NCBI GenBank assembly: GCA_947451045.1
Contig: CANFXM010000015.1
Coordinates: 1-33,008, forward strand
DNA from: Actinomycetota bacterium
GTDB lineage: Bacteria > Actinomycetota > Actinomycetes > Nanopelagicales > Nanopelagicaceae
Direction of reading: 5' to 3'
Length of the DNA: 33,008 nt
Shown here: one piece after another, positions 27,970 through 33,008 of the stretch
Layout of the letters: each line of letters begins with the position of its first letter
How positions within the stretch are numbered: position 1 is the first letter of the stretch
The notes under the pieces: model-generated
What the model saw: only the letters and a program-made list of their open reading frames with translations
The model's database searches: none
Told to the model about the DNA's origin: nothing
Program-made: the position numbers and the translations under genes

Positions 27970-28686
27970 ATGAGTGAGCAAGGGCGTTCGGTAGCGTTAG
28001 TGACCGGAGGCAACCGCGGTATTGGTTTGGCGATTGCAGCAGCTCTCAAGGCCAGTGGCCATGATGTTGTTGTGACCTATCGATCTGGCACCCCGCCAAC
28101 TGGTTTCAATTGCGTGATTATGGATGTCACATCGACACAAAGTGTTGATGCTGCCTTTGCAGAGATTGAAGATAAATGGGGTACACCAGAAATAATTGTT
28201 GCCAATGCTGGAATCACAAAAGATGGACTTGTAATGAGAATGAGTGATGAAGATTTTGAAAATGTACTTGATGCAAATTTGACAGGTGCATTTCGTGTTG
28301 CCCGTCGTGCCACTAAAGGTTTGCTCAAACTAAAACGGGGGCGATTGATTTTTATTGGTTCAGTAGTTGGGGGAGTGGGAGCAGCAGGCCAAGTCAATTA
28401 CTCAGCAAGTAAGGCTGGACTCTTAGGTATGGCTCGTTCTTTTGCGCGAGAATTAGGAAGCCGCGGTATCACCGCAAATGTTATTGCTCCAGGTTTTGTA
28501 GAAACCGATATGACAGCGGCATTAGATGATAAGCGTCGCGGCGAGATTGCGAGTTCGGTTCCCTTAGGACGATTCTCGACACCTGAAGAAATTGGCAATG
28601 TCGTATCCTTCATTGCCTCAACACAAGCAAGTTACATCACTGGCGCACTTATACCGGTCGATGGCGGATTAGGAATGGGACACTAA
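27970..28686 (+). CDS. fabG: 3-oxoacyl-ACP reductase (FabG/MabA type)
   Basis: Short-chain dehydrogenase that reduces beta-ketoacyl-ACP in fatty acid synthesis. The 238 residues have the NADPH motif GGNRGIG at 13-19, NAG at 79-81, and the catalytic set Asn103, Ser131, Tyr144 and Lys148 (YSASK). VIAPGFVETDM and a C-terminal PVDGGLGMGH complete the fold. The pairing with an InhA-like enoyl reductase two bases downstream mirrors the mycobacterial mabA-inhA operon and supports the fatty acid role over other short-chain dehydrogenases. Confidence 0.95.
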   Translation: MSEQGRSVALVTGGNRGIGLAIAAALKASGHDVVVTYRSGTPPTGFNCVIMDVTSTQSVDAAFAEIEDKWGTPEIIVANAGITKDGLVMRMSDEDFENVLDANLTGAFRVARRATKGLLKLKRGRLIFIGSVVGGVGAAGQVNYSASKAGLLGMARSFARELGSRGITANVIAPGFVETDMTAALDDKRRGEIASSVPLGRFSTPEEIGNVVSFIASTQASYITGALIPVDGGLGMGH

Positions 28687-28688
28687 CA

Positions 28689-29456
28689 ATGGGAATTCTT
28701 CAAGGAAAGAGAATTTTAGTTACGGGTGTACTTACCGATGCCTCAATTGCTTTTCATATTGCCCGACTTGCACAAGAAGAAGGTGCAACCGTTGTTCTGA
28801 GTTCATATGGTCGAGTACACCGCCTCACTGAACGCATTGCTGGACGCCTTCCTCAACCAGCACCAGTAATTCAACTCGATGTCACAAACAAAGAAGATTT
28901 AGCAGCGCTACCGGATCGAGTTCGCGAACATGTCGACGGACTCGATGGCGTAGTCCATTCGATTGGATTCGCACCCGAAGCAGCACTAGGTGGAAATTTT
29001 CTCAATACTGAATGGGACGACGTTGCAGTTGCAATTCAAGTTTCAGCTTTCTCACTAAAATCGTTAACGATGGCGGCGCGTCCACTCTTTACTGGTGGTG
29101 GTTCAGTTGTCGGTTTAGATTTCGATGCACAGGTTGCATGGCCAAAATATGACTGGATGGGTGTTGCAAAAGCGGCACTTGAATCCACATCTCGTTATTT
29201 AGCGCGTGATCTTGGCCCTGAAAATATTCGTGTCAATCTTGTAGCAGCGGGACCAATTCGCACTATGGCAGCTAAATCAATTCCAGGTTTTGAAGAATTT
29301 GAAAAAGTATGGAATGAACGCGCTCCACTTCAGTGGGATGTAACTGATCCAGTTCCGGCCGCCCAGGCGACAGTGGCGCTTCTTTCGGATTGGTTTCCAA
29401 AGACTACGGCTGAGATTATTCATGTCGACGGTGGCGTACATGCAATGGGAGCATAG
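28689..29456 (+). CDS. fabI: enoyl-ACP reductase, InhA/FabI type
   Basis: NADH-dependent enoyl-ACP reductase completing each elongation cycle. The 255 residues show the divergent nucleotide-binding loop VTGVLTDASIAFHIA, HSIGFAP near 90-96 and the catalytic pair Tyr154 and Lys161, with the wider segment FDAQVAWPKYDWMGVAK strongly resembling mycobacterial InhA, including the Phe of FDA. NLVAAGPIRTMAAKSIPGF follows. It is co-transcribed with fabG, two bases upstream. Confidence 0.95.
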   Translation: MGILQGKRILVTGVLTDASIAFHIARLAQEEGATVVLSSYGRVHRLTERIAGRLPQPAPVIQLDVTNKEDLAALPDRVREHVDGLDGVVHSIGFAPEAALGGNFLNTEWDDVAVAIQVSAFSLKSLTMAARPLFTGGGSVVGLDFDAQVAWPKYDWMGVAKAALESTSRYLARDLGPENIRVNLVAAGPIRTMAAKSIPGFEEFEKVWNERAPLQWDVTDPVPAAQATVALLSDWFPKTTAEIIHVDGGVHAMGA

Positions 29457-29675
29457 GCGCGAATTTCGCTATTTGGGCTCACTCGGGTAATCTTTGCAAC
29501 AGACCAGTGGCTCCGGCTGCTGCAAGAGGAGTTACCGCTCCCACCTTTTTCGCTTATGGCGATTTGGTTCGTCGGGTATGACATAAGGACTTGTTCCTTT
29601 TTCTAGCCCTTGCGGTTGCTATTTTTGTAGCGCTTGATTCACTAGAAGCGTTCGACACAACCATAAGGAGCACAA
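29457..29675 (+). other. 219-base structured leader between fabI and infC
   Basis: The longest non-coding stretch in the window. GGTAA (29486-29490), TCT, TGCA and CAG (to 29502) can pair with CTG, TGCA, AGA and TTACC (29517-29536) as one imperfect stem that leaves GGAG (29528-29531) bulged. GGAG can instead pair with CTCC (29538-29541) as a small hairpin followed by CACCTTTTT. A further short hairpin AAGGA/TCCTT at 29585-29599 is followed by Ts. This could be an attenuating 5' leader of the infC operon, or a fabI terminator region plus promoter. I found no convincing promoter or leader peptide. Confidence 0.4.
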
Positions 29676-29678
29676 ATC
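29665..29678 (+). promoter_or_regulatory. infC ribosome binding site and AUC start codon
   Basis: AAGGAG at 29665-29670 lies five bases before ATC at 29676, which is in frame with all of IF3. An in-frame TAA at 29664-29666 excludes any earlier start. The first ATG in frame is at 29784 and would remove 36 conserved residues. Confidence 0.88.
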
Positions 29679-30260
29679 ACAACAGAACCGCGCATCAACG
29701 ATCGAATTCGTACACCTCAAATTCGTCTCATCGGTTACACCGGAGAACAAGTTGGAGTTGTAGATATCGATACAGCGCTCAAGATGGCAGATGAAGTTGG
29801 TCTCGACTTAGTTGAGATTGCGCCAGATGCTAATCCGCCCGTTTGCAAGATCATGGACTTCGGAAAATATAAGTACGAAGTTGCACAGAAAGCTCGGGAA
29901 GCGCGACAGAACCAGACCCACATCGTGGTGAAGGAAGTGCGATTGACACCGAAGATTGAAACTCACGACTATGAGACGAAACGTGCGCAAGTTGAAAAGT
30001 TTCTCAAAGGTGGCGACAAGGTGAAAGTTACGATGAAGTTTCGTGGAAGAGAACAAACGCGTCCTGAGTTGGGTTACAAAATGCTGCTACGTCTTGCAGA
30101 AGATGTTGTAGAAGTGGCCTTCATTGAATTCGCCCCAAAGCAAGAGGGACGAAACATGACGATGGTCCTGGGTCCAACCAAGAAGAAGACAGAAGCAGTT
30201 GCAGAACAGAAAGCAGCACGCAAAGCGAAAGCCGAAGCTGCAGCTGAGACAACCGAGTAA
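29676..30260 (+). CDS. infC: translation initiation factor IF-3
   Basis: Binds the 30S subunit and rejects wrong initiator tRNA and start codons. Read from the AUC at 29676 the protein is 194 residues: [19 protein letters not shown] and [19 protein letters not shown] of the N-terminal domain, then [15 protein letters not shown], the linker, [18 protein letters not shown] and [19 protein letters not shown] of the C-terminal domain, with an alanine- and lysine-rich tail. No ATG, GTG or TTG occurs in frame before codon 37. A non-standard start is a known autoregulation device of infC (AUU in E. coli). rpmI and rplT follow, the classic operon. Confidence 0.97.
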
Positions 30261-30271
30261 GGGAGCTTGTA

Positions 30272-30469
30272 ATGCCAAAGATGAAGACACACAGTGGGGC
30301 GAAGAAAACATTTCGCGTCACAGGTACAGGAAAGATCATGCACGAGCGCGCTGGTAAGCGCCACCTTCTCGAGCGTAAATCCTCACGACAGACACGTCGT
30401 TTGAGTACAGAGACTTCCGCAAAACCAACCGTAACAGTGACAGCCAAGCGCATGCTTGGTTTGAAATAA
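30272..30469 (+). CDS. rpmI: 50S ribosomal protein L35
   Basis: Small basic protein of the large ribosomal subunit. The 65 residues begin [21 protein letters not shown] and continue with [16 protein letters not shown], diagnostic of L35. AAGGGAG precedes the ATG. It lies 11 bases after infC and 13 before rplT, in the conserved infC-rpmI-rplT order. Confidence 0.98.
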
Positions 30470-30482
30470 GGAGCGTGACTAA

Positions 30483-30845
30483 ATGGCAAGAGTAAAACGT
30501 GGAGTTCACGCAGCAAAGAAGCGTCGTACAACCCTCGAGCGCGCAAGTGGATACCGTGGACAACGTTCACGTCTTTTCACAAAAGCGAAAGAGCAAGTTA
30601 CGCACTCAATGGTTTATGCATTCAATGACCGCAAAGATAAGAAAGGCGATTTCCGTCGTCTTTGGATTCAACGCATTAATGCTGAATGCCGTGCAAATGG
30701 ACTTACATACAACCGCTTCATACAAGGCCTCAAGGCTGCAGGAGTTGAAGTCGATCGTCGTGTACTTTCAGAGCTAGCAACAAATGAGCCATCAACATTC
30801 AAGACTCTCGTTGATGTTGCTCGCAAAAACTTGATCTCTGCTTAA
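30483..30845 (+). CDS. rplT: 50S ribosomal protein L20
   Basis: Large-subunit assembly protein; in several bacteria it represses its own operon by binding the mRNA. The 120 residues open [19 protein letters not shown] and include [38 protein letters not shown] and the C-terminal [23 protein letters not shown] is positioned before the ATG. I did not identify an L20-binding mimic in the leader. Confidence 0.98.
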
Positions 30846-30854
30846 TAGGCACCA

Positions 30855-31649
30855 ATGATTGAGAGCCTTCATTCGCCACATATTGCGCGAGTGAAGGCTC
30901 TTATTGGTTCTAGGGGAGTAAAAGAAAGACGGAATGCAGCTCTTTTTGTAGCTGAAGGAATTCAAAGCGTTCGCGAAGCAATCACATTTCGCAAAGAGAT
31001 ATCAATAGACACCCTCTACCTAACAGGTAATGGGCGAAATCGCTTAGAGGAATCAATAAATTTATCCGATGTCAACACTGTTGATGTTAGCGATGAAGTA
31101 ATGGCTGCCATATCAGAGACAATTACACCGCAAGGGATTCTTGCCGTTTGTTCGATCCCACAACGTAACATTTCGCAATTTCAACTACGCGGTAATAGCA
31201 GAATCATATATTTATCTGAGATTCAAGATCCCGGAAATGCAGGAACCATTATTCGTTCTGCTGATGCTATGGGCATGAGCGCAATTGTTACTTCGCCAGG
31301 AAGTGTTGATTTATTTTCGCCGAAAGTTGTGCGATCAACCGCAGGTTCGTTGTGGCATATACCTGTTTTCGAAAGTGTTTCGTTGGACGAAATAACTGCT
31401 ATTTTCCCTGGAACCGACATGTTTACCTTGGGATCAAAGGGATCAACTCCTCTGCCTGAATTGAAAGTAACTAGTGATTGCATTGCAATATTTGGCAATG
31501 AAGCTCGCGGAATTGCAACGCCACAGAATCTTGCGCAGGTGAGCATTCCTATGCCAGGAAATGCTGAAAGCCTCAATCTTTCTGCTGCAGCATCAATTGT
31601 TATGTATCACCTTTCAAATATCCCGACCTCTGCTAACTCGTCGCGATAG
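30855..31649 (+). CDS. TrmH/SpoU family RNA 2'-O-ribose methyltransferase
   Basis: Methylates a ribose in RNA, probably 23S rRNA by family and location after rplT; the exact nucleotide cannot be told. The 264 residues have an N-terminal substrate-binding domain (RRNAALFVAEGIQSVREA) and the knotted SPOUT domain with its three motifs: QDPGNAGTIIRSADAMG, IFGNEARGI and IPMPGNAESLNLSAAASI. It starts nine bases after rplT and precedes pheS, a common actinobacterial order. Confidence 0.93.
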   Translation: MIESLHSPHIARVKALIGSRGVKERRNAALFVAEGIQSVREAITFRKEISIDTLYLTGNGRNRLEESINLSDVNTVDVSDEVMAAISETITPQGILAVCSIPQRNISQFQLRGNSRIIYLSEIQDPGNAGTIIRSADAMGMSAIVTSPGSVDLFSPKVVRSTAGSLWHIPVFESVSLDEITAIFPGTDMFTLGSKGSTPLPELKVTSDCIAIFGNEARGIATPQNLAQVSIPMPGNAESLNLSAAASIVMYHLSNIPTSANSSR

Positions 31650-31652
31650 AGT
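31647..31652 (+). promoter_or_regulatory. candidate leaderless -10 element for pheS
   Basis: TAGAGT, including the TAG stop of the methyltransferase gene, lies seven bases before the pheS ATG at 31660. There is no Shine-Dalgarno sequence. The same hexamer precedes uvrB. Confidence 0.35.
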
Positions 31653-31659
31653 TGGACTC

Positions 31660-32667
31660 ATGGATTCAAAGGAAGTATCAGGCTGGGTAAAAGATGCTCA
31701 AGCTGCCTTCCTCTCCGCTGGTGACCTTGATGAGCTCAAGAGTGCACGCCTGGCGCACATGGGGGATAAAGCTCCTATTTCATTAGCGAGTAGATCACTT
31801 GGTTCACTCTCAGCAGATGAGAAAGCATCATTTGGAAAAGTAATCGGAGATGCGAAAGCGCAGATTGCAAGTGCTTTGGATATCGCGACAAAGAAATTAG
31901 AAAATATAAGAGATCAGAAAGTTTTGCTCGAAGAAGTTGTAGATATAACACTGCCGGCAAGTCGTATGCATAGAGGCGGACTTCACCCAATCTCCATTAT
32001 TAAGAATGAGATTTCTGATTTCTTTATTGAACAAGGATTCTCAGTTGAAGAAGGGCCAGAGATGGAATCTGGTTGGCTAAACTTCGATGCTCTCAATATT
32101 CCAGCTGATCATCCAGCACGAACTATGCAAGACACATTCTTTATCGAACCATTGGAATCAGGAATGGTTCTTCGGACACAAACTTCGCCTGTGCAAATTC
32201 GCACAATGCTCACACAAGAACCACCTATATACATTATTTCTCCAGGTAGAACATTTCGTGCCGATGAACTCGATGCCACTCATAGTCCTGTCTTTCATCA
32301 GGTAGAAGGACTTGTCGTTGATCGAGGTATAACCATGGCGCATCTGAAAGGTACCCTCGATAATTTTGCGCAGCACATGTTCGGCGCAGATGTAACAACT
32401 CGACTTCGTCCTTCGTTTTTCCCTTTCACTGAACCGAGTGCAGAAGTAGATATCTTTTTCAACGGTCGCTGGATTGAATGGGGCGGTTGCGGAATGGTCA
32501 ATCCGAAGGTTCTTCAGACGTGTGGGATAGATACAGATATCTTTACTGGCTTTGCATTTGGAATGGGACTAGAACGCACCTTGATGGTCCGTCATGGAAT
32601 TACTGACATGCACGACATCGTTGAAGGAGATCTTCGTTTTACTCGACAGTTCGGTATGGGGTTGTAA
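31660..32667 (+). CDS. pheS: phenylalanine-tRNA ligase alpha subunit
   Basis: Catalytic subunit of the alpha2-beta2 class II synthetase that charges tRNA-Phe. From ATG 31660 it has 335 residues: an N-terminal coiled-coil arm (about 1-85), HPISIIKNEISDFF, motif 2 FRADELDATHSPVFHQVEG, and motif 3 GFAFGMGLERTLMVRHGI. The frame is open 33 codons further upstream, but that segment overlaps the methyltransferase gene and lacks family similarity. Its stop overlaps pheT by one base (TAATG), ensuring coupled synthesis of the two subunits. Confidence 0.97.
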   Translation: MDSKEVSGWVKDAQAAFLSAGDLDELKSARLAHMGDKAPISLASRSLGSLSADEKASFGKVIGDAKAQIASALDIATKKLENIRDQKVLLEEVVDITLPASRMHRGGLHPISIIKNEISDFFIEQGFSVEEGPEMESGWLNFDALNIPADHPARTMQDTFFIEPLESGMVLRTQTSPVQIRTMLTQEPPIYIISPGRTFRADELDATHSPVFHQVEGLVVDRGITMAHLKGTLDNFAQHMFGADVTTRLRPSFFPFTEPSAEVDIFFNGRWIEWGGCGMVNPKVLQTCGIDTDIFTGFAFGMGLERTLMVRHGITDMHDIVEGDLRFTRQFGMGL

Positions 32668-33008
32668 TGCGTGCACCGTTATCGTGGTTGCGTGAATTCG
32701 CCGCTATCCCAGAATCAATAAGTGCGGAAGAAATTTCAAATGCCTTTATTCGTGTTGGATTTGAAGTCGAAGAAATTATCACTCAGGGAGCTGATCTAAC
32801 GGGGCCTCTTGTAGTTGCAAAGGTTTTAGCCATAGAAGAACTCGCAGGAAATAAGAAGCCGATTCGTTATGTTGAATTGGATTGCGGTGAGAAGCAGTCC
32901 AGGTTCGTCATATGTGGAGCCACTAATTTCGTAGTCGGCGATTTAGTCGTTGCAGCACTTCCAGGAGCAGTGCTTCCTGGAAATTTCGCAATCTCAGCGC
33001 GCGAAACG
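32667..33008 (+). CDS. pheT: phenylalanine-tRNA ligase beta subunit, 5' part
   Basis: Only the first 114 codons are in the window; the rest lies beyond it. The protein begins MRAPLSWLREFAAIPESIS, then VGFEVEEI, and the EMAP/OB-fold tRNA-binding domain is recognisable in LVVAKVLAIEE, ICGATNFVVGDLVVAALPGA and LPGNFAISARE. The start overlaps the pheS stop. Confidence 0.95.
   Translation, partial: MRAPLSWLREFAAIPESISAEEISNAFIRVGFEVEEIITQGADLTGPLVVAKVLAIEELAGNKKPIRYVELDCGEKQSRFVICGATNFVVGDLVVAALPGAVLPGNFAISARET

Follow-up and report, generated by a model that had tools for sequence, protein, structure and literature searches.

A non-standard AUC start codon of infC, a related clade with GUC and a conserved leader RNA in an actinobacterium of the Ca. 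Planktophila type

The gene for translation initiation factor IF3, infC, starts at an ATC codon at position 29676 of the window, by which we mean the whole stretch of 33,008 nucleotides analysed. The source, a freshwater actinobacterium, has a genome of the Ca. Planktophila type, whose closest named matches are uncultured actinobacteria and Ca. Planktophila. Within its genus the infC start is ATC or, in one clade, GTC, and upstream of the gene lies a structured RNA whose base pairs covary. We consider it probable that the AUC start places infC under feedback by IF3, with a clade of relatives using GTC and the leader probably acting as a second control on the operon. An AUC start in an actinobacterial infC is already known and is no new extension to the actinobacteria; what is new is the GTC clade, together with a leader found across the class, the core finding being an instance of a known autocontrol.

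The genes around infC are arranged in the order fabI, a 219-nt gap, infC, rpmI, and rplT, all on the forward strand. The features are as follows.

28689..29456, forward strand: fabI, the upstream neighbour of infC, ending 219 nt before it
29664..29666, forward strand: in-frame TAA closing the IF3 frame, overlapping AAGGAG (sequence)
29665..29670, forward strand: Shine-Dalgarno sequence AAGGAG of infC, 5 nt before ATC (sequence, start survey)
29676..29678, forward strand: ATC start codon of infC (sequence, genus comparison)
29676..30260, forward strand: infC, encoding translation initiation factor IF3 in 194 codons from ATC, followed by the stop (IF3_N, IF3_C, TIGR00168)
29784..29786, forward strand: first in-frame ATG of infC (codon 37), rejected as start
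30272..30469, forward strand: rpmI (L35), ATG start
30483..30845, forward strand: rplT (L20), ATG start (TIGR01032)

The infC frame is open from 29676 to the stop codon at 30258-30260, with the spacer CACAA between AAGGAG and ATC and no ATG, GTG, or TTG between ATC and 29784. The 194-residue protein read from ATC contains complete IF3_N and IF3_C domains, covers positions 1-70 of 70 of the Pfam IF3_N profile, and scores 220.2 bits against TIGR00168 (cut-off 60). A preliminary description had proposed this start, and its coordinates for the TAA (29664), AAGGAG, ATC (29676), and ATG (29784) all hold; it mentioned neither the GTC clade nor the leader RNA. Were the protein to start instead at ATG 29784, the first standard start in frame, it would be deprived of the first half of its N-terminal domain: the first 30 profile positions are lost, leaving positions 31-70 of 70, and the TIGR00168 score drops to 176 bits. 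Amino-acid constraint acts on codons 2-36 just as on the remainder of infC, and by eye no Shine-Dalgarno sequence precedes this ATG. A start at 29784 is therefore highly improbable, and the earlier prediction that software accepting standard starts only would remove the 36 codons up to that ATG is well supported.

Constraint within the genus begins right after the ATC. Among the loci with this start, the minority fraction at codon positions 1/2/3 averages 0.001/0.011/0.313 for codons 2-12, and 0.404/0.326/0.314 for the ten codons upstream of the start, where a coding pattern is absent. All 81 of these loci have ATC as codon 1, and each of the nine further conserved Ile codons listed varies. 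As a control of the method, the E. coli infC start was read as ATT. The ATC codon, the closed frame, and the constraint boundary together give infC a start other than AUG, GUG, or UUG. A sequencing or assembly error at 29676 could be suspected, as the window comes from a 1.39-Mb draft in 73 contigs. However, 81 genomes of the genus, among which several consist of a single contig, share this codon, which refutes this explanation and reduces its probability to almost nothing.

We found an infC match in 113 of 135 genomes of the genus and read the start in 108 (G196, G201, G223, G234, and G279, with matches lacking the N-terminus or in pieces, were left out). The start codon is ATC in 81 and GTC in 27, and never a standard one (0/108). 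No relative with ATG at the same position, which would have spoken against the ATC start, was found among the 108 loci of the genus (0/108) or the 32 from the other genera of the family (0/32). An upstream stop closes all 108 frames; between this stop and the start codon, no ATG, GTG, or TTG is present in 44/81 ATC loci and 7/27 GTC loci. A pattern search yielded 22 GTC loci among the 135 genomes, the remaining five coming from reading other loci. GTC sits six bases after the Shine-Dalgarno sequence, one further than ATC. In a quick maximum-likelihood phylogeny built from infC alone, with codon 1 removed (107 rows: 99 from the genus, 23 of them GTC, and 8 outgroup; nine short genus loci were omitted), GTC requires one change, against a mean of 21 after shuffling, with an SH-aLRT value of 88. 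By this comparison the GTC starts form one clade within the genus.

These GTC codons might also be internal Val codons, translation in the clade starting further upstream in frame. An in-frame ATG, GTG, or TTG does occur upstream in 20 of the 27 loci, at codons −8 to −112, so that for those loci sequence alone leaves room for an upstream start. The candidates are not at one place, however, and the other seven loci have none, the closing stop being only 5 codons away in L014 and L154. Moreover, constraint in the GTC set starts at codon 2 (0.000/0.027/0.199 after the start vs 0.215/0.181/0.159 upstream), and GTC is kept in 27/27 loci, unlike most of the other Val codons, although three further Val columns are constant too, as GTG. 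An upstream start of the clade is thus very unlikely, and we read GTC as its start codon. The IF3 proteins of the two sets also differ at two residues (window numbering). Residue 144 is V in 74/74 ATC loci, and I in 21 and T in 2 of 23 GTC loci; residue 148, mostly changed from A to G, is G in 23/23 GTC loci and also in 5/74 ATC loci. We claim no meaning for these single-clade differences.

An initiator-type Met-tRNA anticodon stem with CAU (pattern TGGGCTNNNAACCCA) was found in 11 of 11 Planktophila genomes, nine of which are GTC species, and ARAGORN reported tRNA-Met (CAT) in 6/6 of those loci scanned. GGG/CCC stems mark initiator tRNAs. No special initiator tRNA for GUC was found. A first pattern (CGGGCTNNNAACCCG) had no match in the 11 Planktophila genomes; one unrelated match came from another family. 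Since the CAU initiator-type tRNA is present in 11/11 genomes, GUC must be read by mismatch. At the aligned start of rpmI, the sole start-codon control, 190 loci were read, with 184 ATG, 5 GTG, and 1 ACG; rplT was dropped as a control, its extrapolated start being off, with stop codons in 41/116.

Outside the genus, the start was assigned by a rule that selects, among the in-frame codons, the one preceded by the best Shine-Dalgarno sequence. This rule gave ATC in 31 of 32 loci from the other genera of the family; the 32nd, L134, was called ATT but carries ATC at the aligned place. Elsewhere in the same class, 19 of 20 loci, from eight families of unequal sizes, have ATC and one (L186) ATT. The 29 loci from other classes to which the rule was applied comprise 13 ATC, 8 GTC, 4 GTA, 1 ATA, 1 unsure (L277, TTC), and 2 uncalled (L273 and L276); the call of L270, GTA or ATC, is also doubtful. 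Twenty more other-class loci, read by eye, gave 8 GTC, 1 GTA, 5 ATA, 3 ATC, 1 ATT, 1 ATG, and 1 ambiguous start. The ambiguous locus, L317, has ATC with in-frame GTG and ATG directly upstream, and L305 (G498) is the sole clear case of ATG at the aligned infC start. These two loci show that the phylum does not use a weak infC codon throughout. The wider search read 69 of 241 infC-bearing genomes, and non-standard starts amount to 205 of the 207 genome-search loci called, the others being the one ATG and the one ambiguous start. ATA starts were observed in L309-L311, L315, and L318, and ATT, as in L186, in L313 of another class. L254 (G247:C17:5465-6220) has an infC split over two frames, probably through a frameshift or assembly error.

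Family f16, from another class and with 16 genomes in the search, has GTC in 12 and GTA in 3 of the 15 loci read, the last five by eye (L194, L197, L200, L201, L262, L265-L268, L274, and L299-L303). Its Shine-Dalgarno sequences are mostly long (GGAGGTGAT), with 7 to 9 bases in 14/15 loci and 4 in L200. Families f51, f55, and f61 have GTC in four of five loci, the fifth being L305 with its ATG; both other loci read in its family, f51, have GTC, and L305 may represent a natural escape from the weak codon. Among 57 named actinobacterial contigs, some of them probably of the same species as genome-search loci, 52 have ATC and 5 GTC. Twenty-three further contigs (L088-L110), mostly of Rhodobacteraceae and kin by title, have ATA (21) or ATC (2). 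One of these, L094, is titled Enemella evansiae, an actinobacterium, and has a Rhodobacteraceae-like infC; it is perhaps a mislabelled or contaminating contig.

Such codons have precedents. Passages of a study of Streptomyces state that infC starts there at ATC and that IF3 thereby autoregulates, the feedback being unmeasured in those passages, and that the infC start is wrong in most Streptomyces annotations (PMC5472188). They also report a GTC start for Streptomyces sigR, whose repression by IF3 was measured; codons of this kind respond to IF3 in E. coli infC (AUU) and in sigR (PMC5472188). The window shares with E. coli infC the gene itself, the class of start rejected by IF3, and the order infC-rpmI-rplT; it differs in having AUC (GUC in relatives) instead of AUU, and a structured leader before infC. 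It shares with Streptomyces infC the ATC codon, the phylum, and, for Scr1601-matching loci, the leader core upstream, but here the genome is small and low in GC and AAGGAG lies at 5 nt. The IF3-controlled GTC start of sigR is a precedent for the GTC clade, although it belongs to a sigma-factor gene there and to the gene for IF3 itself in the relatives here. GUA was reportedly described as a mutant start codon suppressed through IF3 by Haggerty and Lovett in 1997. No GTC-start infC is reported in the parts of the literature that our search covered.

It is reasonable to infer from E. coli and Streptomyces that IF3 feeds back on infC of the window. AUC might instead be merely weak and hold IF3 at a low level, with no IF3-dependent feedback. 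Weak codons indeed cut output at any IF3 level, and L305, in another class, has ATG. Yet the 205 of 207 called loci have arrived at an IF3-rejected codon by different routes, namely ATC, GTC, GTA, ATT, and ATA (TTC in L277 being unsure); the passages cited above describe such codons answering to IF3 in E. coli infC and Streptomyces sigR (PMC5472188); and the good Shine-Dalgarno sequence suggests that infC output itself is not minimised. A merely weak start is thus rather unlikely, and feedback by IF3 is the reading that we retain.

The RNA between fabI and infC is strongly conserved from AGACCAG (29501) onward. Its elements, with the putative promoter element before it, are as follows.

29486..29493, forward strand: putative −10 region (GGTAATCT), from column conservation in 106 genus loci
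29501..29643 (about), forward strand: conserved infC leader RNA, both alternative folds (conservation, covariation, fold energy)
29501..29574, forward strand: leader 5' domain, closing pairs 29502-29504/29571-29573 around three hairpins (models R1 and R2)
29505..29522, forward strand: leader hairpin A, changes on both sides in 3/7 pairs in alignment A1 and 7/7 in A3
29528..29541, forward strand: leader hairpin B (GGAG/CUCC), nearly invariant, hence no covariation
29543..29568, forward strand: leader hairpin C, 3 outer pairs invariant, inner pairs changing on both sides in 4/4 (A1) and 3/4 (A3)
29612..29629, forward strand: 3' strand of the alternative long-range helix, pairing with 29521-29538 (minimum-energy fold)

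Alignment A1, of 40 sequences, has 97.4% of cells paired, with changes in both partners for 7 of its 21 pairs; the closing pairs, like most of hairpin B, are invariant and thus uninformative on covariation. None of 500 shuffles scored as high, and slid controls had 22-52% of cells paired. Alignment A3, of 61 distinct sequences from more genera, was fitted to the model and so leans to it; here 97.0% of cells are paired and 13 pairs change on both sides, a count reached by 3 of 500 shuffles (0/500 for the other measures). Comparison thus shows that the leader covaries. A second, minimum-energy fold has 92.7% of cells paired over 44 sequences, hairpin C included: 93.2% in GCGGU/ACCGC, where three of five pairs change on both sides, and 87.5% in the U-rich part, where 0 of 8 do. 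The fold energy of 29501-29645 is −51.6 kcal/mol, vs −38.1 (sd 3.3) for shuffles (z −4.08), and RNAalifold recovered the structure in part only from the raw alignment of 55 leaders. As the strand CUGCAAGAGGAGUUACCGC is common to both folds, these partly exclude each other, and the models suggest that the leader may switch between them. Pairing of the CUCC of hairpin B with the Shine-Dalgarno sequence was considered and is not claimed; by eye, the base after the Shine-Dalgarno sequence has no clear covariation.

The window carries the leader core CAAG[UCA]GGAG..CUCCCACC, with hairpin and GGU, before infC. Model R1 matches the 5' domain in the window with 87.9 bits, the window's own copy being in the model, and finds 32/32 loci from the other genera of the family, including 25/25 not used in building it. 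A strict whole-genome search with R1 matched 8 of 118 genomes of the class, all in the family. Model R2, built over the family, matches 19/20 same-class genomes of other families, 13/14 named contigs with 59-66% IF3 identity, and 5/5 left-over family loci; it matches 0 of 9 loci in other classes. Many class-wide R2 hits are weak (E 0.01-2), and the evidence is their constant place: 37 of 38 hits are on the infC strand, 51-213 nt before the infC start, in 37/37 loci with a hit.

A search of Rfam with window positions 28500-33008 found no family at E ≤ 1, hence neither RF02830 nor RF00558, which we take to be the L20 leader of Bacillus. Scr1601 (RF02830), a Streptomyces 'sRNA', is the only Rfam match to the leader core. 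It exceeds its gathering threshold (100 bits) in 2 of 18 loci scanned, with 186 and 171 bits, and reaches a sub-threshold 20 bits in L079. The two matches span the infC leader of these same-class loci (L174:2161-2386 and L177:2157-2370), and the R2 hit lies inside in both; Scr1601 is nevertheless classed as an sRNA gene and stays below threshold in the window and in 16/18 loci scanned. From this label and these scores, the upstream RNA could be taken for a free-standing small RNA and not a cis leader of infC. Against this, the RNA keeps its place and strand before infC in all 37 loci with a hit. The passages available place the S. ambofaciens homologue of Scr1601 among UTRs and not among predicted sRNAs (PMC8388888), and describe for M. 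tuberculosis a 326-nt infC 5' UTR that is more abundant than the coding part and resembles the infA 5' UTR (PMC3207917). A terminated leader would, besides, resemble an sRNA. We hold a free-standing RNA to be improbable and favour a cis leader of infC. The relevant part of a review describes control by L20 via the infC leader in B. subtilis, with alternative folds (PMC10931766). The leader described here is likewise structured, precedes infC-rpmI-rplT, and has alternative folds; it differs in that Rfam has no match in the window region.

The motif GGTAAYCT is conserved 8-15 bases before AGACCAG in 106 loci of the genus, and from its position the transcript may start near 29501. Together with an ATTTC block lying about 20 nt upstream of it, it gives window positions 29463-29501 a promoter-like appearance for the leader; a consensus promoter scan of the window found none. 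A terminator scan of the window gave two terminator-like sites (0.4 in shuffles), both inside hairpins B and C, and a scan of L074 gave none. In L072, L074, L174, and L175, a GC-rich hairpin followed by a T run was observed by eye between the leader core and infC. Attenuation between leader and infC is not claimed, as the terminator-like sites lie in hairpins of the 5' domain and L074 has none.

According to the proposed mechanism, the initiator tRNA would read AUC at 29676 by a third-position mismatch, helped by AAGGAG. IF3 would destabilise initiation at such a codon, so that high IF3 lowers its own synthesis, and rpmI and rplT, with ATG starts in the window, would be free of this brake. Selection would keep the infC codon weak, since it is ATC or GTC in the genus and never standard. 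GUC, in one clade, differs from AUG in two of its bases, and the set point would presumably differ as well. The leader RNA would probably be a second control on infC-rpmI-rplT, switching between a cloverleaf-like fold and the long-range helix.

Taken alone, the ATC start represents a known autocontrol in one more genome. The series ATC, GTC, GTA, ATT, and ATA at infC is a comparative sign of selection for codons rejected by IF3. We tentatively propose, as a possibility that falls short of being probable, that the set point of actinobacterial IF3 feedback is tunable by the start codon. Codons off AUG at the first and third positions would have arisen at least two times if ATC is ancestral (GUC in a clade of Planktophila; in families of another class, GUC or GUA behind an extended Shine-Dalgarno sequence), with AUG, GUG, and UUG nearly always avoided. 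The brake would work with an actinomycete-wide switching leader, represented in Rfam solely by a Streptomyces 'sRNA', that responds to L20 or some other operon product. In these genomes, annotation restricted to standard starts will put the beginning of infC in the wrong place. With the GTC clade, close species form natural ATC/GTC pairs in which the effect of the codon on IF3 level can be measured, and through the leader the Streptomyces 'sRNA' would become a candidate for class-wide cis-regulation of a translation operon.
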